Shown here: piece by piece, positions 2,239-56,435 of the stretch
Position numbering within the stretch: the first letter of the stretch is position 1
How the letters are laid out: each line of letters begins with the position of its first letter
Assembly: GCF_015277775.1 (NCBI RefSeq)
Contig: NZ_CP063849.1
Coordinates: 6,215,501-6,279,500, forward strand
DNA: 64,000 nt
Source of the DNA: Paludibaculum fermentans
GTDB lineage: Bacteria; Acidobacteriota; Terriglobia; Bryobacterales; Bryobacteraceae
Direction: 5' to 3'
Translations under genes and position numbers: made by a program
Notes under the pieces: generated by a model
What the model was told of the DNA's origin: nothing
Databases searched by the model: none
Seen by the model: the letters and a program-made list of their open reading frames with translations, nothing else

Positions 2239-2288
2239 GTGTTACCGATGTCGCCGGTCCAATTCGTTACCTATGTCCGCGGACCGTA
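2239..2288 (-). repeat. Right terminal inverted repeat of the IS element
   Basis: This is the inverted partner of 768-816. It lies about 80 bp upstream of the transposase start, so it may also overlap the transposase promoter. The sequence directly outside it begins the 427-bp direct repeat at 2289. Confidence 0.75.
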
Positions 2289-2715
2289 CCCCAGCCTTAC
2301 CCCCGGCGCAAGCCGGGGGCCCGCCGCAACAACGAAGCCACTTCCAGCTCAATCGGAAAAGCCCCAGAAAACTTCTGTTCGAAACCGCGACGCGACCCAC
2401 CGGGCACCCAAGCCGGGGGCCTCCGCAAAGCCCCGAATCCAACCCCGTAGGACGGCGGACCCCCTGGTCCGCGCGGGATCCCCCGATCCCGCCCCCGTCC
2501 CCCCCCCAACTCACAAATCAAACGCCGTAGCATGCTTCGGCTGATACAGCCCCAACGCCCCTCCGCTGGGCAGCATCAGCCGGGTCAGCCTGCCCCAGCG
2601 CTCTTCCTGGACCGGCGCTAACTCCACTCCACGGGCGCGTAACTCGCCCATCGTGGCCTCCAGGTCGTCGCACATCAGGTAGACCTCGGCCGGCAGCAGC
2701 GAGCCATTCTTGGGC
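2289..2715. repeat. 427-bp direct repeat, copy 1
   Basis: This segment is almost identical to 2884-3310 (offset 595 bp; one visible difference, gcaag against gccag near its start). It begins exactly at the right IS end and stops inside the VOC coding sequence, so it carries the 3' end of that gene plus the palindrome-rich region downstream of it. Confidence 0.9.
2511..2715 (-). pseudogene. Duplicated 3' fragment of the VOC-family gene
   Basis: The last 68 codons of the VOC gene at 3106-3480 are repeated here word for word, ending at the same TGA. Upstream of 2715 the sequence changes to unrelated repeat DNA. The fragment therefore lacks the first half of the VOC domain and has no ribosome-binding site. 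It is a by-product of the 427-bp duplication and should not make a functional protein. Confidence 0.85.
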
Positions 2716-2742
2716 AACCTGCCGCAAGCCTCCGCAAAGCCT

Positions 2743-2845
2743 CCCCAGCCTTACCCCCGGCAGCCGGGGCCCGCCGCAACAACGAAGCCACTTCCAGTCC
2801 CAACCCAAAAACCCCCAGAAAACTTCTGTCCTAACCGCGACGCGC
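2743..2845. repeat. Third, diverged copy of the palindrome-rich repeat
   Basis: About 100 bp here match the start of both 427-bp repeat copies (the CCCCAGCC, CCGCCGCAACAACGAAGCC and AAAACTTCTGT blocks) but with many substitutions and small gaps. Flanking GCCTCCGCAAAGCCT words recur on both sides. It sits between the two copies and may have been the homology that allowed the duplication. Confidence 0.65.
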
Positions 2846-2883
2846 CTCTGGGCAACCCAATCCGCAAGCGTCCGCAAAGCCTC

Positions 2884-3310
2884 CCCCAGCCTTACCCCCG
2901 GCGCCAGCCGGGGGCCCGCCGCAACAACGAAGCCACTTCCAGCTCAATCGGAAAAGCCCCAGAAAACTTCTGTTCGAAACCGCGACGCGACCCACCGGGC
3001 ACCCAAGCCGGGGGCCTCCGCAAAGCCCCGAATCCAACCCCGTAGGACGGCGGACCCCCTGGTCCGCGCGGGATCCCCCGATCCCGCCCCCGTCCCCCCC
3101 CCAACTCACAAATCAAACGCCGTAGCATGCTTCGGCTGATACAGCCCCAACGCCCCTCCGCTGGGCAGCATCAGCCGGGTCAGCCTGCCCCAGCGCTCTT
3201 CCTGGACCGGCGCTAACTCCACTCCACGGGCGCGTAACTCGCCCATCGTGGCCTCCAGGTCGTCGCACATCAGGTAGACCTCGGCCGGCAGCAGCGAGCC
3301 ATTCTTGGGC
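2884..3310. repeat. 427-bp direct repeat, copy 2
   Basis: This is the partner of 2289-2715. It contains the true 3' end of the VOC gene (3106-3310) and its downstream flank, and is probably the original because the gene continues past its right border. Confidence 0.9.
3050..3087. repeat. Pair of adjacent GC-rich hairpins downstream of the VOC gene
   Basis: Arms 3050-3056/3061-3067 (7 bp, 4-nt loop) and 3068-3075/3080-3087 (8 bp, 4-nt loop) lie back to back about 20 bp past the VOC stop. An identical pair is in the other repeat copy at 2455-2492. They look like a dispersed palindromic element and may serve as a mRNA 3' end, but there is no T tract. Confidence 0.55.
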
Positions 3311-3505: not shown

Positions 3506-5944
3506 CTAAATGTGACCCCGGCAGCGCGCGATTCCCGCCAAAGCCTCCCGCCGCATGCGGGCCGGGTCGAAGTCGCCCGGCAGCCGGTCACTCATTGGCA
3601 GTGCGCGGAAGTCGGCGTCCGCCCAGGTATAAGCCTGCAAAGCGCGCGTCCAGTTTTTCCGGCGCACCTGCGCATCACCCAGATTCAGCGCGGCCCAACC
3701 GGCGTGCAGCCTCAAGTCGTGGTTGTCCGGCGCCTGCCGCAGCTCGGCCAGCAACCTCCGCCGCGCCTCACTTAGCAGCTCAATCGCCCGCTGCGCATTC
3801 CCAGCGTCCAGATAAGCCGGAGCCGCCGTGATCATCAGCTTCGCCAGCTCGATCCGTGCCCGGAAGTCGGACGGATCCTCGGCTGCGAGCTCCTCCTGGA
3901 TGGCGAACGTCCTCTGGTAGTCCTCCACGGCGGAGCGGTTGTCCTTCAGCATGTGGTGGATCCACCCCATCTCCACGAGAACGAAGGAGAGTTCCATGCG
4001 GCCCCGCGTGTTGCGCGGCATCGCCTCCACCAGCTTCTTCTGCAGTTGCTCCGCCTGGAGAAAGTGCCGCAGCGCAGCTCCAAGGTCGCCCGCCTGCTGG
4101 CTGGCGCGCGCCAGGCTGCTGTGGCAGCGGGCCAGCGCACGCAGCATGCTCGCGTCCGATGGATCCTTCGCCAGCAACTGGGTGTAGGCGGCGATCGCGG
4201 CATTCCATAGCGGAATCGCGTCCGGCAATTTGCCGTCCATCCCGGCGTCATAGGCGATACGCACCTTGTACAACGCATCCAGCTCCGGGCGGTCCGGGTA
4301 ACGCCGCGACCTCGTCCGCATCAGCCCCGTCAGTTCGGCACGCAGCGCGTTCCAGCCCTTCGCGTCGCCCTGGATCTCGTAGATGTCCGTAAGCCCCGTA
4401 TCCGCATCCACCAGCAGCCGCTGCGCCTCGTCGTTTTGCGAATCAGATCTCAAATAGGCGAGCAGCAACTCACGCGCATGGCGGAAGCTGTCCAACGCTC
4501 CATCGAAATCGCCCAGGTTCGCCCGGCTCTGGTGACCCTGGACATCGCCGATCTTGAGGTACGCCGCCGCGATCTCCAGTTGCAGTTGGCGATTCTTGCC
4601 GCCGGTGGTCTCCAGTTCCCTCAAGTAGTGCAGCGCGCGCTCCACCAGCAGCTTGCGCGCCGGCGTGGAGCCGGGCAGGTCCGCAATCGCGTCGTGCAGC
4701 TCGTAAATCACGGTGCGCGCCAAGCCCCGGGCCTGCTGGAACCGCAACTCGCTCTGCCGCCACTGCCACAGGATCGCGGCCATGAAGATGGAAGCGGCCA
4801 GCACCGCCGCCGCCGAGACCGCCACGCCCCAGCGATGCCGCCGGACGAACTTGGCGGTGTTGTAGGTGAAGGTGCCGCGCGAGGCCCGCACCGGCAGGCC
4901 TAGCAGATGGTTCTCGATGTCTTGCCGGAACTCCTCCACCGTGGCATAGCGCAGCTCCGGCTCCTTCCGCAGCGCCATCAGCACGATGTCATCCAACTCC
5001 TGCGGCAACTTCACCAGATGGCTGGGCGGCTTAGGCTCTACCTCGCACACCGCGCGGTAGGTCTCCAGTGGCGAGGTATCCACGGCGGCGTACGGCCCTT
5101 GGCCGGACAGCAGTTCATACAGCACCACGCCCAGCGAATAAATATCCGTGGCCGTCGAAAGCGGCTCGCCGCGCACCTGCTCCGGGCTCGCATACGCCGG
5201 GGTCAGAAGGGTTGAGGTCGTTTGCGTAGTGGTCGTGCCGACGGCCTCGTCAAAGACCTTGGCCAGCCCGAAATCGAGCAGCTTCGGGTTGCCGGCCTCG
5301 GTCACCAGGATGTTCGCCGGCTTGATATCGCGATGGATCACCAGATTGCGATGCGCGTGCGCCACCGCGTCGCAGATCCGCATGAACAGTTTCAGCCGCT
5401 CGTCGACCGTGTAGTCTCTGGCCCGGCAGTATTCGATCACCGGCCGGCCTTGAATATACTCGAGGACGTAGTAAAGGCGCCCGTCCGCCGTCGCGCCGCC
5501 ATCCATCAAAGCGGCAATGCCCGGATGCCGCAGGCTGGCGAGTATCTGCCGTTCCCTTCGGAACAGCTCCGCCAGGCGCGCCGCACCCGCGCCGGAGCGC
5601 ATGATCTTCACCGCCACCTGCTGCGTATACGCGCCGTCGTCGCGCACGGCCAGATAGACGATCCCCATCCCGCCTTCACCCAACTCGCGCAGAATCCGGT
5701 AGGGTCCCAGCCGCTTGGGCGGTGCATCAGGCACCGGCTCCGGCCCCGCCTCCATCTCTGACCAGCGCGTCACCGGCAGCCTCTCCGCAGCCTCGGGTTC
5801 GTACCGCAGATATGCCTCGACCTCGGCTCGCAGGGCGGCATCCCCCGCGCACACGTCATCGAGATAGGCCGCGCGCCGGTCCGGCTCCAGCTCGAGTACG
5901 GCCGCCAGGATGTCCTTGATCTGGCTCCAGCGCTGGTCGATCAT
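3506..5944 (-). CDS. Membrane Ser/Thr protein kinase with periplasmic TPR repeats
   Basis: This 812-residue protein has a short N-terminal helical region (1-75) typical of acidobacterial kinases paired with ECF factors. A PknB-type kinase domain follows (about 80-350): glycine loop GEGGMGIVY at 89-97, ATP-anchoring K113, catalytic HRDIKPAN with D206, DFG at 224-226, and the activation/APE region TPAYASPEQ near 248-256. One membrane helix spans about 372-393. The remaining 420 residues form TPR-like helical repeats outside the membrane. It probably senses an envelope or protein partner through the TPR part and phosphorylates cytoplasmic targets. The ATG at 5944 overlaps the TGA of the sigma-factor gene (ATGA), so the two are translationally coupled and likely act together. 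Confidence 0.9.
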   Translation of the reverse strand: MIDQRWSQIKDILAAVLELEPDRRAAYLDDVCAGDAALRAEVEAYLRYEPEAAERLPVTRWSEMEAGPEPVPDAPPKRLGPYRILRELGEGGMGIVYLAVRDDGAYTQQVAVKIMRSGAGAARLAELFRRERQILASLRHPGIAALMDGGATADGRLYYVLEYIQGRPVIEYCRARDYTVDERLKLFMRICDAVAHAHRNLVIHRDIKPANILVTEAGNPKLLDFGLAKVFDEAVGTTTTQTTSTLLTPAYASPEQVRGEPLSTATDIYSLGVVLYELLSGQGPYAAVDTSPLETYRAVCEVEPKPPSHLVKLPQELDDIVLMALRKEPELRYATVEEFRQDIENHLLGLPVRASRGTFTYNTAKFVRRHRWGVAVSAAAVLAASIFMAAILWQWRQSELRFQQARGLARTVIYELHDAIADLPGSTPARKLLVERALHYLRELETTGGKNRQLQLEIAAAYLKIGDVQGHQSRANLGDFDGALDSFRHARELLLAYLRSDSQNDEAQRLLVDADTGLTDIYEIQGDAKGWNALRAELTGLMRTRSRRYPDRPELDALYKVRIAYDAGMDGKLPDAIPLWNAAIAAYTQLLAKDPSDASMLRALARCHSSLARASQQAGDLGAALRHFLQAEQLQKKLVEAMPRNTRGRMELSFVLVEMGWIHHMLKDNRSAVEDYQRTFAIQEELAAEDPSDFRARIELAKLMITAAPAYLDAGNAQRAIELLSEARRRLLAELRQAPDNHDLRLHAGWAALNLGDAQVRRKNWTRALQAYTWADADFRALPMSDRLPGDFDPARMRREALAGIARCRGHI

Positions 5945-18980: not shown

Positions 18981-18994
18981 TTGAGTGGATCCAG

Positions 18995-19023
18995 GACCCC
19001 GGGCTTCGGCCCGGGGTCTTTTT
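18995..19023 (+). terminator. Rho-independent terminator after infB
   Basis: A perfect 10-bp stem (18995-19004 with 19009-19018) closes a C(TTCG)G tetraloop and runs into TTTTT at 19019-19023. It lies 15 bp after infB and 5 bp before the next start codon, so ylxP needs readthrough or its own promoter. Confidence 0.88.
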
Positions 19024-19028
19024 GCGTT

Positions 19029-19316
19029 ATGGCAGCTATTGGTGTACTGACTCTCGAATTGGAACTGGTGCAGTCGCACTCGTTGAAGGACAAGCGGCAT
19101 TGGGTGCGGGGGCTGAAGGACCGGCTGCGGGCGGGGTTCAACGTGGCCGTGGCCGAGGTGGAGGATCAGAACCTGCTGAACCGGTCGGTGGTGACGGCGG
19201 TGACGGTGTCGGGGTCGCGGGAGAATGCGGCGAAGGTGCTGGAGTCGGCGGAGCGGGCGGCGGCGGCGTTTCTGGGGCCGAATCTGGTTAGCAGTGGGAT
19301 TGAGTGGTTGGAGTGA
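19029..19316 (+). CDS. ylxP: DUF503 family protein (YlxP-like)
   Basis: The 95-residue protein matches DUF503: IGVLTLELELVQSHSLKDKRHWVRGLKDRLRAGFNVAVAEVEDQNLLNRSVV, ending in a short C-terminal helix. In many bacteria this gene lies between infB and rbfA, as it does here apart from the insertion, and it is thought to take part in ribosome or RNA metabolism; the molecular role is not established. I chose ATG 19029, directly behind the infB terminator. A TTG start at 18981 would read through the hairpin and is unlikely. Confidence 0.85.
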   Translation: MAAIGVLTLELELVQSHSLKDKRHWVRGLKDRLRAGFNVAVAEVEDQNLLNRSVVTAVTVSGSRENAAKVLESAERAAAAFLGPNLVSSGIEWLE

Positions 19317-19325
19317 GGGGGGCGG

Positions 19326-19910
19326 CTATGGCCGTCGGTGCAGTGGGGGCGTCGCTTCTGCACAGGATTCGCAGCCGGATTCGCCATGGTGGATTTCCAT
19401 GGGGGCGCCTTGTCCATTGAGTACATAGTTGATCGCCTTGTTGATGGCGTAGGGTGATCCCAAGGGCCGGATGTGGCCGTAGTCGGCCCAGATACGGTCC
19501 CCCCATGTCGCCAAGTTGGCTTCTTTCAGCGCATTCGTACAGGCACGTTTGAGCTCTCCCATCGATCGTTCCGGGGTTGCTGATGTGTCCAGAATGACGT
19601 GGAGATGGGTGGATCGGATGTGAGCGGCCAGGAGCGCCCAGTTCCAGGTCTTACATGCGTTGCAGATAGTCTCCAGGATTAGCTTCCGGTGCGGTCGCTC
19701 CAGGACATATGGGCGAGATTTGGCGTTTTGCTGCCGCCATCGGACAAGGCTTTCGCTTTTGTGGATTGTGGGGTGGAGACCGTAGCCACTCCAGGTTAGT
19801 AGGACTACCACGTCATTGATGTGCGTGCTGGGCGCGATTCCTCTCAGGCTATGGATGAGGACTTCGTTGATGGATTCGGGCGCTTTCGAGATTGGGATGG
19901 TCCCCAGCAA
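19326..19910 (-). CDS. REP-associated tyrosine transposase (RAYT, Y1/HUH type)
   Basis: The product (about 194 residues from the TTG at 19910) carries the HUH motif as THLHVILD and a candidate catalytic tyrosine in AINKAINYVLNGQG, both typical of IS200-like single-strand transposases. The conserved N-terminal strand is VVVLLTWSGYGLHPTIH. RAYTs act on REP palindromes; here a REP-like array lies directly upstream of the gene. The frame stays open without a stop to an ATG at 20201 inside the array, so the start is uncertain. The extra segment translates repeat DNA and is unlikely to be functional. The gene is convergent with ylxP, 9 bp apart, and sits in the middle of a translation cluster. Confidence 0.72.
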   Translation of the reverse strand: MLGTIPISKAPESINEVLIHSLRGIAPSTHINDVVVLLTWSGYGLHPTIHKSESLVRWRQQNAKSRPYVLERPHRKLILETICNACKTWNWALLAAHIRSTHLHVILDTSATPERSMGELKRACTNALKEANLATWGDRIWADYGHIRPLGSPYAINKAINYVLNGQGAPMEIHHGESGCESCAEATPPLHRRP

Positions 19911-19937
19911 TGCCGGAGGGGATGCTGGGGGGACTGC

Positions 19938-20612
19938 GAGGTTGGAGATGTGGCGTTGGTTGAAGGTGGAGGGCGGCGTTGGAGTTGGAATAGGCCCCCG
20001 GCAATGCCGGGGGGAATGCTGGGGGAGGAGCCTGCGAGGTTGGAGATGTGGGGTTGGTTGAAGGTGGAGGGCGGCGTTGGAGTTGGAATAGGCCCCCGGC
20101 AATGCCGGGGGGAATGCTGGGGGAGGAGTCTGCGGAGGTTGGAGATGTGGCGTTGGTTGAAGGTGGAGGGCGGCGTTGGAGTTGGAATAGGCCCCCGGCA
20201 ATGCCGGGGGAATGCTGGGGGAGGAGTCTGCGAGGTTGGAGATGTGGGGTTGGTTGAAGGTGGAGGGCGGCGTTGGAGTTGGAATAGGCCCCCGGCAATG
20301 CCGGGGGGAATGCTGGGGGAGGAGTCTGCGACAGGCTATGGATGAGGACTTCGTTGATGGATTCGGGCGCTTTCGAGATTGGGATGGTCCCCAGCAATGC
20401 CGGAGGGGATGCTGGGGGGACTGCGAGGTTGGAGATGTGGCGTTGGTTGAAGGTGGAGGGCGGCGTTGGAGTTGGAATAGGCCCCCGGCAATGCCGGGGA
20501 ATGCTGGGGGAGGAGTCTGCGAGGTTGGAGATGTGGCGTTGGTTGAAGGTGGAGGGCGGCGTTGGAATTTGAATGGGCCCCCGGCGATGCCGGGGGAATG
20601 CTGGGGGAGAGG
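19938..20612. repeat. REP-like tandem array, six units of about 97 bp
   Basis: Units begin GAGGTTGGAGATGTGG at 19938, 20036, 20135, 20232, 20425 and 20521 (lengths 98, 99, 97, about 98, 96 and a truncated last one). Each contains the palindrome CCCCCGGCAATGCCGGGGG followed by AATGCTGGGGG, a REP-like core with an inverted-repeat stem. Units 4 and 5 are separated by an inserted copy of the RAYT 5' region. Unit lengths are not multiples of three, so open frames across the array are by-products of composition. Confidence 0.9.
20332..20520. repeat. Second copy of the RAYT 5' region plus one array unit
   Basis: Bases 20332-20520 repeat 19845-20035 (offset 487) with only small changes near the end. 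The first 93 bp correspond to the start of the RAYT coding region and contain a variant palindrome (CCCCAGCA ... TGCTGGGG); the rest is array unit 5. The duplication shows that the gene 5' end itself was copied within the array. Confidence 0.85.
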
Positions 20613-20722: not shown

Positions 20723-22291
20723 CTACTCTTCTTCCTGGTAGTCAGTTTCCGTGTTGACTTCCCAGAGGTTGGATTTGTCGGTGCGGCCTTCCAGGATGTT
20801 GTCTACCGCTACCATGGCCGTCAGCATCGAGTGGTCCTGGTTGTTGTAACGGTGCATACCGTTGCGGCCTATCGGGAAGAGATTTTGCAGGGAATCCAGG
20901 TACGTGCGGAGCACTTCGAAGCGGTCGTAGGTGCCGAAATAGGCCGGGTAAGCCTTCTCTACCCGCAGGACCGTGGCGTCCAGGACATCGCTGGTTTCTA
21001 TGATGCCGATGCGGGCCAGTTCCGTTCGGGCTAACGCCTCGAGGTCCGCGTCCGGGCTGGACCAGAGCGCGTCGGTCTGGTTGCAGAAGTACTCCAGGCC
21101 CAGCCACACCGTGCCGGGATCGGCGACGAGATACGGGCTCCAGTTGTTGTAGATCTGGAGGCGGCCCACCTGCACATCGGATTCCTGAATGTAGATCCAG
21201 TTGTCGCGGATCAGCTTGCGGCCCTGCTCAGTTTCGTCGTGGATCTTGAGGGACCGGACCAGCAGGCCTACGGTGACGAAGTCGCGGTAAACGAGACCCT
21301 GGCTGACTGCCCGGACTTGTGGCGGCGGGGCGGGTGTCATGGACTCGATCAGTTCCGAGAGCGGGGCCGTGGAGAAGAAAAAGTCCGCCGGATACGACTC
21401 CGATTCACCGGTGGCCAGGTTGGTGGCCTTCACTGCGACGACTTTGCCGTCCTCCAGTGTCAGACCGTCGACGCGGCGTCCGGTGTGAATGACTCCACCC
21501 AGCTCACGAACCTTGCGGGCGGTCTCTTCCCACATCTGACCGGGGCCGAATTTGGGGTAGAGGAACTGCTCGATGAGGGAGGTTTCGGTTTTGGCGCTGG
21601 TGCCCTTCCGGCCAAACATCTTGCCCAGGGCGTGGCCGAGCACTTTGCGGACGGAGAGACCCTTGATGCGCTGCCGGCCCCAGGCGGCACTGATGGCCGA
21701 GCAGGGGACGCCCCACACCTTCTCGGTATACGACTGAAAGAACGTGCGGTAGAGTTCACGGCCGAAGCGGTTGATGAAGAAGTCCTCGAGGGACTTCTCT
21801 TCCGGCAGCGGGCGGAGGACGGTGCGCAGGTAGCTGAGGCCGATGCGGAAGGTCGCCCAGAGGCCGAGCTTCCGGATGGTGTCGACGCTGAGGGTGATGG
21901 GGTACTGGAAGAGGCGGCGGCGGAAGTAGATGCGGGACTTGCGCGGCCGCAGCAGCATGACGTTGTCTTCGCGCTCGGGATCGGGGCCGGAGCCACCGGA
22001 CTGGAGCGAGCGCCGCATGCGGTGGTAGGTGATTTCCGGGGTACCGGGCGGAAGTGCCTGGATGGGCAGCATGCGATGCCACCATTCCATGACACGGTCG
22101 GATTTGGAGAAGAAGCGGTGGCCGCCGAGATCGATGCGGTTGCCTTTGTAGTTCGCCGTGCGCGAGATGCCGCCGAAGTGTTCGCTCTTCTCCAGCACGA
22201 TGGGCTGGATGCCTGTGCGAGTCAGAAGTTCAAAGGCAGCTGTGAGTCCGGCAGGGCCGGCTCCAATGATGATTGCTTTTTTGACGTGCAT
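20723..22291 (-). CDS. FAD-dependent oxidoreductase (amine-oxidase/UDP-galactopyranose-mutase-like)
   Basis: This 522-residue flavoprotein has an N-terminal dinucleotide-binding fold ([18 protein letters not shown], then [14 protein letters not shown]). The family block [21 protein letters not shown] follows, with [24 protein letters not shown] in the middle. It resembles the NAD(P)-binding/FAD amine-oxidase superfamily that includes protoporphyrinogen oxidase and UDP-galactopyranose mutase; relatives with GGHRFFSK are often near polysaccharide genes. The substrate is not clear. I chose the ATG at 22291 where the Rossmann fold starts. It lies between the RAYT array and rbfA on the opposite strand to the translation genes, so it is part of the inserted block. 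Confidence 0.8.
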
Positions 22292-22457
22292 CCCCGATTG
22301 AGACGCGGACCCCTCCGAGAAGCGCGCCCATCCGACAGAATCTCTTATCATATCGGAGGAGAGGCTTTAGGCGCTGAGAATCCGCGCATTGGGCCAGCAG
22401 CCCGCGGCAGGAGTTTCGGCTAGCGAGACTTTTGCCGCAGGCTGCTAGGCTTATAGA

Positions 22458-22835
22458 GTGGATCCACTTCGTACCCGCCGCGTTGCCGAGAAGATGAGAG
22501 AGGAGTTGTCGGAGCTCATCCGGTATGAGTCCGACGACCCGCGCATTCACCAGGTGGAAGTCACCGAGGTGGTGGTGTCGCCGGACATGCGGCAGGCGGA
22601 CGTGCTGGTGGTGCTGCCGCAAAAGGCGGAGGAGCGCGTGCTGGCGCTGGCCGGGCTGGAATCGGCGAAGGGGTATTTGCGGCATCAGCTGATGCAGCGG
22701 CTGGAGTTGTTCCGGATGCCGGAGCTGCGCTTTAAATCGAACGTGGGATCGGCGCAAAGCGCTCCAATCGAAAGACTTCTGCGGCGGGTGCGGCGGGGCC
22801 GTCCGAAGGCGGACCCGGGCCCCCTGCCCGAATGA
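22458..22835 (+). CDS. rbfA: 30S ribosome-binding factor RbfA
   Basis: The 125-residue KH-like protein helps 16S rRNA 5' end maturation and cold adaptation. The family signature is seen in RTRRVAEKMREELSELIRYESDDPRI, VTEVVVSPDMRQADVLVVL and the C-terminal LRFKSNVGSAQSAPIERLL. The start is GTG at 22458. It normally follows infB or ylxP directly, but here it is about 3.1 kb away, separated by the RAYT array and an FAD oxidoreductase. It must therefore use its own promoter. Confidence 0.93.
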   Translation: MDPLRTRRVAEKMREELSELIRYESDDPRIHQVEVTEVVVSPDMRQADVLVVLPQKAEERVLALAGLESAKGYLRHQLMQRLELFRMPELRFKSNVGSAQSAPIERLLRRVRRGRPKADPGPLPE

Positions 22836-55109: not shown

Positions 55110-56435
55110 CTATTTCCCGCGGCGGCGAGCCGACCATGCCAGGACCGCGAGCCCTGCGGCGACCAAGCCGTATGTGGACGGCTCAGGAATCGGGTTCGGC
55201 GGCGGAATCACCGGCGGTGGTTCCACGGGCGGCGGATTCACCGGTGGCGGCTCGACCGGGGGTGGCCCGACTGGAGGAGGCGTCACAGGCGGCGGCCCTA
55301 CCGGCGGTGTGAGCGGCGGGGGTGTCACCGGAGGCGGCGTCACCGGAGGCGGATTGACCGGAGGCGGATTCACAGGTGGCGGCGTCACCGGCGGAGGATT
55401 CACCGGAGGTGGGTTCACTGGTGGTGGATTCACCGGCGGCGGGTTGACCGGAGGTGGATTCACTGGTGGCGGATTGACTGGCGGCGGGTTGACCGGCGGC
55501 GGATTCACTGGAGGTGGATTCACCGGGGGCGGATTGACAGGTGGAGGGTTCACCGGCGGTGTCGTCGGCGGAGGGGTCACCGGCGGCGGCGTGACCGGTG
55601 GAGGCGTCACGGGCGGCGGCGTCACAGGTGGCGGTGGAATCACCGGCGGTGTGGTGGGCGGCGGAACCGTGCCCGGCGGAGGCGGAACAAACCAGCCGCA
55701 GCAAGGCACGGGTGGGATGATGAAACCTCCGCCGGTGGGACCGGTCGGATAGGGACCGGGCGGATAGAAGTCGGGTGGCACAGCGCCGGGCGGGACACCG
55801 GCGGGCGTCTCCGAGGGCGGGGCCATTTCCGGCGGCGGTCCGGGATAGGGCATGGTCAGGGCCAGGATCGGCAATTCGGGCGTATTCAGGACGTCTTCCG
55901 GCGGCTCCAGGAGACTGAATTGCGTCTGTGGGGCGTCGATCAGGCGGTTGCCGCAGCGGCTGCGGATATAGTTGGTGCCGTCAGTGATCACGCGTTCGCC
56001 GGCTGCGATGGTGAGCTTCTTCCTGGTCCAGTAGATCTTGCCGTTCAGGCGGTAGGAGACGTAGGCGAGGCGCGGCTCGTGCAACGTGGTGACCAACGCC
56101 CGTTCGAAATCGAAGCCGCGGTAGTGCGCCGCGACGAGGGGGTCGCGCTGGGCGGCGGAGAGAACCTCCTCCGGTGTCTCCACGCCGCCAGGCACAACGG
56201 AGTAGGGGAACACCAGGCGATCAGGGATTTCCTGCCGCTGCGTCCACATCTGCTCCAAGAGCGAGAAACCGCCGGGATTGAGAGCTGAAACAGCGTCCGG
56301 GTCATGGCGCTGCTGCAGCGTCAGGCTTCCGGCAACAACTACTATGGCGACGGCCAACAGGATGACCAGTGGCCGGGCACTGGCCCAGTCCCTCTGGCGC
56401 CTGCGGGGCCTCCGCGGTAGTACTTTTGAGTTCAC
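55110..56435 (-). CDS. PEP-CTERM protein with proline-rich repeat stalk
   Basis: The 441-residue protein has an N-terminal membrane or signal helix (LVILLAVAIVVVAGSLTL). A unique domain of about 170 residues (50-215) follows, then about 150 residues of PPPVN/PPPVT repeats (roughly 25-30 units). The end is PEPSTYGLVAAGLAVLAWSARRRGK, a PEP-CTERM sorting signal: PEP motif, membrane helix, Arg cluster. Such proteins are cut and processed by an exosortase, often for exopolysaccharide-linked surface display. No exosortase gene is in the window. The start is GTG 56435. The stalk would hold the N-terminal domain away from the cell surface. Confidence 0.83.
   Translation of the reverse strand: MNSKVLPRRPRRRQRDWASARPLVILLAVAIVVVAGSLTLQQRHDPDAVSALNPGGFSLLEQMWTQRQEIPDRLVFPYSVVPGGVETPEEVLSAAQRDPLVAAHYRGFDFERALVTTLHEPRLAYVSYRLNGKIYWTRKKLTIAAGERVITDGTNYIRSRCGNRLIDAPQTQFSLLEPPEDVLNTPELPILALTMPYPGPPPEMAPPSETPAGVPPGAVPPDFYPPGPYPTGPTGGGFIIPPVPCCGWFVPPPPGTVPPPTTPPVIPPPPVTPPPVTPPPVTPPPVTPPPTTPPVNPPPVNPPPVNPPPVNPPPVNPPPVNPPPVNPPPVNPPPVNPPPVNPPPVNPPPVTPPPVNPPPVNPPPVTPPPVTPPPLTPPVGPPPVTPPPVGPPPVEPPPVNPPPVEPPPVIPPPNPIPEPSTYGLVAAGLAVLAWSARRRGK
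55198..55680. repeat. 15-bp-period minisatellite encoding the Pro-rich stalk
   Basis: Nearly 480 bp are built from 15-bp units that encode Pro-Pro-Pro-Val-Asn/Thr on the minus strand. Unit changes are mostly synonymous or Asn/Thr/Gly/Glu swaps, and the frame is kept throughout. Copy number could vary by slippage or recombination. Confidence 0.85.

Follow-up and report, generated by a model that had tools for sequence, protein, structure and literature searches.

What are a Y1/HUH transposase-like gene and a tandem array of palindromes doing between ylxP and rbfA in Paludibaculum fermentans, and how did the array come about? The locus lies in the 64,000-nucleotide stretch of DNA analysed here (the window), and a preliminary description proposed that gene and array together make up a self-contained REPtron. 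Among the explanations weighed below, the best is a class-3 TnpA-Y1 REPtron that spreads its REPs as head-to-tail arrays, a reading to which we assign a probability of roughly two in three.

The insertion between ylxP and rbfA

The region is composed of the following features (coordinates of the window):

19029–19316, plus strand: ylxP (DUF503)
19326–19811, minus strand: RAYT, a Y1 HUH protein of 161 aa from GTG 19811, with THLH and Y----Q motifs
19812–19901, minus strand: RAYT leader, from the proximal REP to the start codon, with a GAGAG element and a spacing kept in most related copies
19902–20612, plus strand: tandem array of eight REPs in a single orientation, 98-bp period
20723–22351, minus strand: FAD/amine-oxidase-like gene (542 aa), upstream of the array
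22458–22835, plus strand: rbfA

The position between ylxP and rbfA given in the preliminary description holds, but the gene-plus-array unit is not the sole occupant of the site, which it shares with the 542-aa oxidoreductase gene. The RAYT converges on ylxP, with a 9-bp gap between the two stop codons. The order oxidoreductase gene, REPs, RAYT, ylxP is common to the focal genome (G000; 9,532,094 bases) and two relatives, G205 and G208, and only in these three genomes do a RAYT and the oxidoreductase gene lie between ylxP and rbfA. Comparison of the locus in related genomes, as proposed at the outset, separates G205 and G208, which carry the insertion with its RAYT, from G202, G206, and G203, which have no insertion and in which ylxP and rbfA adjoin each other at distances of 10, 27, and 81 bp, respectively. 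The two genes are also adjacent in the family genomes G103 and G167, and the G207 contig ends at the locus. The content of the insertion varies: G205 has only two REPs plus one degenerate REP, and G208 has three consecutive RAYT copies, with REPs separating them and further REPs downstream, about half of its ten REPs being located beyond the last RAYT. The ylxP–rbfA junction seems to accept insertions repeatedly.

In two further genomes, G209 (L129, 5530–6732) and G204 (L130, 5372–6526), the gap between ylxP and rbfA holds a glycosyltransferase-like gene (named by eye) that runs in the direction opposite to ylxP in both. On the other side of ylxP, the infB/ylxP interval of the window contains a strong intrinsic-terminator-like hairpin with a T run (18993–19020), directly before the ylxP start.

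The RAYT gene and its protein

The gene had been read as a Y1/HUH transposase-like gene from its HLH motif and late Tyr, and profile comparison agrees: the TTG-initiated open reading frame at 19326–20201 (minus strand) matches Pfam Y1_Tnp (PF01797) at 26.1 bits (cut-off 23; E 1e-5), with THLH as the HUH motif and the late Tyr in INYVLNGQG. Scores against two NCBIfam models were 17.8 of the required 80 bits (the REP_Tyr_transpos equivalog) and 19.5 of the required 55 bits (IS200). The 291-aa product of the TTG frame was rejected because the frame extends too far, into the array. Translation most probably begins at the GTG at 19811, giving 161 aa, because a GTG (once an ATG) stands at the aligned place in eight gene copies from three genomes and because the conserved domain of class-3-like relatives, taken from 29 loci where both motifs were sought, starts there.

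Residues H69, H71, Y129, and Q134 show no variation in six RAYT copies of the lineage, nor in 19 class-3-like proteins, 12 of which come from outside the lineage and were chosen because both motifs had already been seen in them, the lineage alone being an unselected sample. Apart from THIH in one G208 copy, the focal lineage has THLH; wherever the motif was located in other family members, it reads NHVH, THVH, or SHVH. Pairwise dN/dS (NG86) ranges from 0.11 to 0.29 in 20 pairs, the near-identical G208 tandem pair being left out; many of the dS values are near saturation and YN00 failed for several pairs, and within these limits the codon comparison shows the RAYT to be under purifying selection. 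The RAYTs of G000 and G205 share 65% of their amino acids, compared with 91–100% for the neighbouring genes, and evolution faster than that of neighbouring genes is also described for other RAYTs in the available part of PMC2817692. The RAYT was missed by our home-made gene predictor, which points to atypical codon use. An AlphaFold model of the protein, built from two input sequences, reached a pLDDT of 43.9, too poor for use.

The tandem array and the RAYT leader

Within the array, the individual elements are as follows:

19902–19932, plus strand: RAYT-proximal REP, degenerate, its stem decayed in the focal genome
19995–20025, plus strand: REP, exact palindrome with AATGCTGGGGG tail
20093–20123, plus strand: REP, exact
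20192–20221, plus strand: REP, exact palindrome
20289–20319, plus strand: REP, exact
20332–20388, minus strand: RAYT leader piece duplicated within the array, identical to 19845–19901
20389–20419, plus strand: REP, degenerate, a copy of the RAYT-proximal REP
20482–20510, plus strand: REP, palindrome shorter by one base
20578–20607, plus strand: REP with one mismatch, the last in the array

Six palindrome units of ~97 bp facing the gene had been reported. The array is real, but its count and placement required correction: it comprises eight REPs, with a period of 98 bp, and stands upstream of the RAYT 5′ end (TRF: 19902–20609, period 98, 7.3 copies, score 1072). Four of the eight hairpins are exact 19-bp palindromes, two are near-exact, and two are degenerate; the exact palindrome CCCCCGGCAATGCCGGGGG begins at 19995, 20093, 20192, and 20289, and the array contains six exact occurrences of GAGGTTGGAGATGT. 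The 8-bp stem of the RAYT-proximal REP is perfect in G000b and G205 and, within G208, in the three ylxP copies and one further copy, and the distance from the REP stem to the RAYT start is 91–95 nt in five of eight gene copies. Positions 19845–20012 are identical to 20332–20499 (100% over 168 nt, at an offset of 487 bp), and this duplication has brought part of the RAYT leader into the array. A CRISPR-like reading of the array was considered and rejected, the spacers inside an array being for the most part copies of one another.

Standing between the RAYT start and the oxidoreductase gene, which has the same orientation, the array could act as a regulatory leader, its stacked hairpins dampening RAYT expression or insulating it from the oxidoreductase gene upstream. 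The predicted fold of the leader RNA is more stable than those of 20 shuffled sequences (z −2.9), and REP hairpins are proposed to lower RAYT expression in the accessible portion of PMC3733652. Such a role sits poorly with the few REPs of the G205 locus and with the REPs downstream of the last RAYT in G208, and similar arrays also occur far from any RAYT; we regard it as doubtful. A promoter scan of the region found none, with 0.8 expected.

The REP family in the genome and its relatives

A palindrome found only here, together with relatives carrying the insertion but no RAYT, had been named in the preliminary description as the mark of a local tandem repeat. What was found is REPs across the genome and a RAYT in both G205 and G208, and a reading as a local tandem repeat alone was rejected on the genome-wide copies. 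The exact form did prove rare, the 17-bp palindrome occurring eight times at two loci only, but the suggested genome search uncovered a wider REP family. The 98-bp unit used as a query found 29 places in the genome (eight of them within the focal array), and a gapped REP pattern gave 60 matches (five in the focal array) against none in a reversed control, which excludes a chance origin. Across the family, the stem varies in sequence and the AATGCTGGGG tail stays nearly constant.

A covariance model was built from 28 of 41 candidate REPs, leaving out eight chance- or offset-like candidates and five irregular variants. In the 28-sequence alignment, both partners have changed in four of the eight stem pairs, and 97.7% of cells are paired, a level that none of 500 shuffles reaches, the pairing and covariation being partly selected since these REPs were found by a stem criterion. 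Within the tail, AATG-TGG hardly varies. Judged from this alignment, the stem looks to be recognised by its shape and the tail by its sequence.

At E 0.01, the model matches at least 83 sites in G000, at least 72 in G205, and at least 80 in G208, and none in the other six of the nine genus genomes; 150 candidates were scored per genome, which makes the REP counts lower bounds. With stricter filters (E 1e-4), the same three genomes were the only ones with REP matches in a 150-genome sample of the family. RAYT relatives at 56–66% identity were likewise confined to these three among 237 family genomes, 75 of which have a match of any kind when weaker ones (up to 46%) are included. Because G000, G205, and G208 form one clade, the co-occurrence of RAYT and REPs amounts to one evolutionary event. 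A two-peptide-pattern scan of named genomes, which may omit the focal genome itself, returned one relative, the metagenome-assembled Acidobacteria genome JAFKEE010000016.1.

The REP family is mostly extragenic: at 17 chosen loci of the focal genome, 15 of 53 deduplicated REP sites (16 of 71 before merging) fall within genes predicted by a home-made coding score, compared with a coding background of 84%. The window holds one more cluster of the focal family:

2284–3027, minus strand: second REP cluster, with three REPs near 2291, 2745, and 2886

This cluster is opposite in orientation to the focal array and 17 kb from the RAYT, and TRF calls part of it a 145-bp repeat. Tandem repeats with periods of 15 and 45 bp are also present in the window at 55197–55634. 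At another locus of the focal genome (L263, 2432–3300; G000:C1:4635.4–4636.3 kb), a REP array with a period of mostly 125–126 bp was placed by the home-made predictor in a long antisense frame; the repeat may be coding, or the predicted gene spurious.

Head-to-tail arrays across the genomes

Among the 150 matches listed of 235, 121 lie in clusters, and neighbouring REPs less than 700 bp apart have the same orientation in 83 cases and the opposite orientation in one. Many clusters have a regular period of their own (e.g., 99, 120, 144, 198, or 210 bp), and others are irregular. Over 21 arrays, mean spacer identity is 0.785 within arrays (172 pairs) versus 0.46 between arrays (210 pairs), with single-array means from 0.28 to 0.97. 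Certain composite units recur at different places. A 210-bp unit is found at three places in G208 (85–88% identity), where similarity extends past the array and the units lie within larger repeats; a 109-bp unit is found on several G205 contigs (84–88%), and between those 109-bp arrays that match each other best, similarity ends 3–17 nt past the last REP core. Array ends fall on the REP tail side (within 16 nt) in 15 of 32 cases and on the other side in 6 of 32 (Fisher p 0.03), which, with a crude method and a cut-off set afterwards, is only weakly suggestive of array edges clustering at the REP tail. Replication-strand bias of the REPs, considered as a sign of lagging-strand targeting, fell short of significance (20 of 31 hand-merged sites, p 0.15; p between 0.07 and 0.47 with different choices of origin and terminus) and was set aside.

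No transposase is needed for tandem arrays to form, since slippage or unequal recombination can produce them, and this offers a strong rival account of array growth: the RAYT may once have seeded the REPs, with the arrays now growing and shrinking by slippage and recombination at strong hairpins and the enzyme having no part in that growth. The perfect 168-nt duplication in the focal array and the array-specific periods fit such a process, as do units that hold pieces of the RAYT leader (focal array) or of the ylxP tail (G208), which ordinary tandem duplication would also produce. Harder to reconcile with it are the composite units common to different loci and the single opposite pair among the neighbours counted above, a tally of REP hairpins only. 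We rate slippage without the enzyme at a little short of an even chance, and the RAYT and slippage may both act.

Placement among RAYT and TnpA-Y1 systems

In the available text of Quentin et al. (2018; PMC6006769), three classes are distinguished by the context of the Tyr: Y---Q, Y---NP, and Y----Q. Class 3, with Y----Q, is described there as rare (from 10, later 24, proteins), occurring mainly in Planctomycetes, Acidobacteria, and Proteobacteria, and having CnGA-footed repeats; the class 3 system of Solibacter usitatus has about 600 associated repeats. The same text treats class 3 as possibly intermediate between insertion sequences and REPtrons and a link to domesticated RAYTs, and leaves its behaviour open. 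Set against this account, the focal system resembles class 3 in its Y----Q motif, its occurrence in Acidobacteria, its hairpin-flanked gene, and its high genomic copy number. It differs in having THLH where the class has an NHVH consensus (not an absolute rule), in REPs without the CnGA foot 5′ of the hairpin, and in the nearly constant AATG[C/G]TGGGG tail and strong 8-bp stem of those REPs, the published proteins being known by description. By inspection, the foot of the focal REPs is CAGCATT or CACCATT where tails are intact. On its enzyme motif, the focal system is class 3, with a divergent REP type.

Another RAYT of the focal genome (G000:C1:6425.7 kb), 34% identical to the focal one, is a class 3 protein with CnGA repeats, C-n-G-A-GCGTAAGCGACGGGCT (54 matches versus 1 in a control). 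These repeats lie largely in 36–37-bp head-to-tail arrays, and head-to-tail arrays are present in both class-3 systems examined in G000. Thirteen copies stand beside the gene (L189, G000:C1:6425251–6426192) and 21 at G000:C1:2652696–2653430; at a glance, these arrays look CRISPR-like. Near 4253–4945 of L190 (G000:C1:1.218 Mb), a class-3-like RAYT has 35-nt inverted repeats on either side and in this respect comes closer to an insertion sequence or TIRtron. In G208 (L127; G208:C3:2372.5 kb), a related RAYT is bordered on both sides by a quite different repeat, CCCCAAACCGAAGGTTGGGG, which may have changed in concert with the enzyme.

The preliminary description held RAYTs and REPs to be known mainly as scattered elements, a view at odds with print, where a RAYT flanked by REP clusters is the usual arrangement in the accessible parts of PMC6006769, PMC3733652, and PMC3116915. 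Class 2 REPtrons (the RAYT/TnpA-REP systems of E. coli, Pseudomonas, and Stenotrophomonas) likewise have an HUH-Y1 gene beside cognate REPs, but the focal system has neither their Y---NP motif nor their GT[AG]G (GTAG) foot, nor, given the orientations of the matches listed, their inverted REPIN/BIME pairs as a rule. The tandem REP/REPIN clusters of P. fluorescens SBW25 are evenly spaced, contain flanking DNA, and lie beside RAYT genes, as here; in the available portion of PMC3116915 they are a minority beside inverted doublets, whereas here tandem is the main arrangement among the matches examined. The TIRYT/TIRtron genes of Acidobacteria are IS200-like tyrosine transposases with their own repeats, again as here, and are set apart from the focal RAYT, on the partial description in PMC3733652, by long terminal inverted repeats as flanks. 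Among the papers searched, none dealt with the focal REP family or described a RAYT copy that carries part of a host gene.

A displaced RAYT copy with a ylxP fragment

A second RAYT copy (G000:C1:2981569–2982069), 3.25 Mb from the focal locus, adjoins a fragment comprising about two-thirds of ylxP, its 3′ part. The two belong to a continuous 763-bp block (L124:2371–3133) whose ends lie within ylxP and at the outer edge of the REP belonging to this copy; the block is 77.6% identical to the G205 ylxP locus and aligns with the window as far as 3126 at 72.8%. The fragment matches the ylxP of G000 at 177 of 192 nt, that of G205 at 172, and that of G208 at 163, so that the copy most likely came from the focal locus or a recent ancestor of it. 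Its RAYT is nearer to that of G205 (77%) than to that of the window (69%), from which it follows that the window copy diverged faster or was exchanged. Since the second RAYT carries part of ylxP, gene and host DNA were copied together. The proposal of a self-contained REPtron is thereby narrowed: a RAYT with cognate REPs across the genome stands, but strict self-containment does not. Of the flanks of the second copy, the right aligns with G205 and G208 and the left does not, so an empty site was not found there. Published REPtrons apparently do not transpose as a unit, as far as the available text of PMC6006769 goes, and against this background a RAYT copy with a host tail is notable; recombination is a possible origin.

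The displaced copy also invites comparison with an ordinary IS200/IS605-type insertion sequence that moves as a unit and has the REP as its left end. The three near-tandem RAYT copies of G208 and the REP-leader-gene unit kept among copies, with its left-end-like REP, would suit such an element. Copies outside the G208 tandem set are only 51–77% identical, however, and are not recent IS copies, near-identical ones being found in that local tandem alone; REPs are vastly more numerous than RAYT genes, and the IS200 model score falls below its threshold. We consider an insertion sequence of this kind improbable.

A possible origin of the arrays

For a class-3 REPtron, the following course of events may be envisaged. 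The HUH-Tyr enzyme would recognise the single-stranded REP by its GC-rich, variable 8-bp stem beside the AATG[C/G]TGGGG tail. Enzymes of the HUH-Tyr type cleave single-stranded DNA next to a hairpin and join the ends again, as described for the TnpA-REP proteins of E. coli, Stenotrophomonas, and Marinomonas in the accessible part of PMC8266576. Here, DNA would be cut and rejoined at or near the REP tail, and REPs would in this way be amplified and spread; joining like-oriented REPs would yield REP plus adjoining DNA in head-to-tail order and not the inverted pairs of a REPIN. The leader REP, located ~90 nt ahead of the RAYT start codon, would form part of the gene unit, and the focal array would represent local amplification around it. 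Cleavage at the tail, the dependence of amplification on the RAYT, and the movement of REP-bounded segments are what we infer for this REPtron.

A more far-reaching version, advanced tentatively and on balance somewhat unlikely, has the class-3 enzyme itself forming satellites: cleaving single-stranded DNA at the tails of REPs that share an orientation, it would reinsert REP-plus-flank segments head to tail and capture neighbouring host DNA, its own gene and two-thirds of ylxP included.

Implications

If that version were true, the system would be a satellite-forming, host-DNA-moving variant of the REPtron. In the three genomes, which are related and of which two are assembled in two or three contigs, related RAYTs go with differing REPs (AATGCTGG versus AATGGTGG tails), and alongside them stand insertion-free relatives, differing array copy numbers, and a displaced gene that carries part of a host gene. 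With this material, how REPs are recognised and how their arrays originate can be tested directly outside Proteobacteria.
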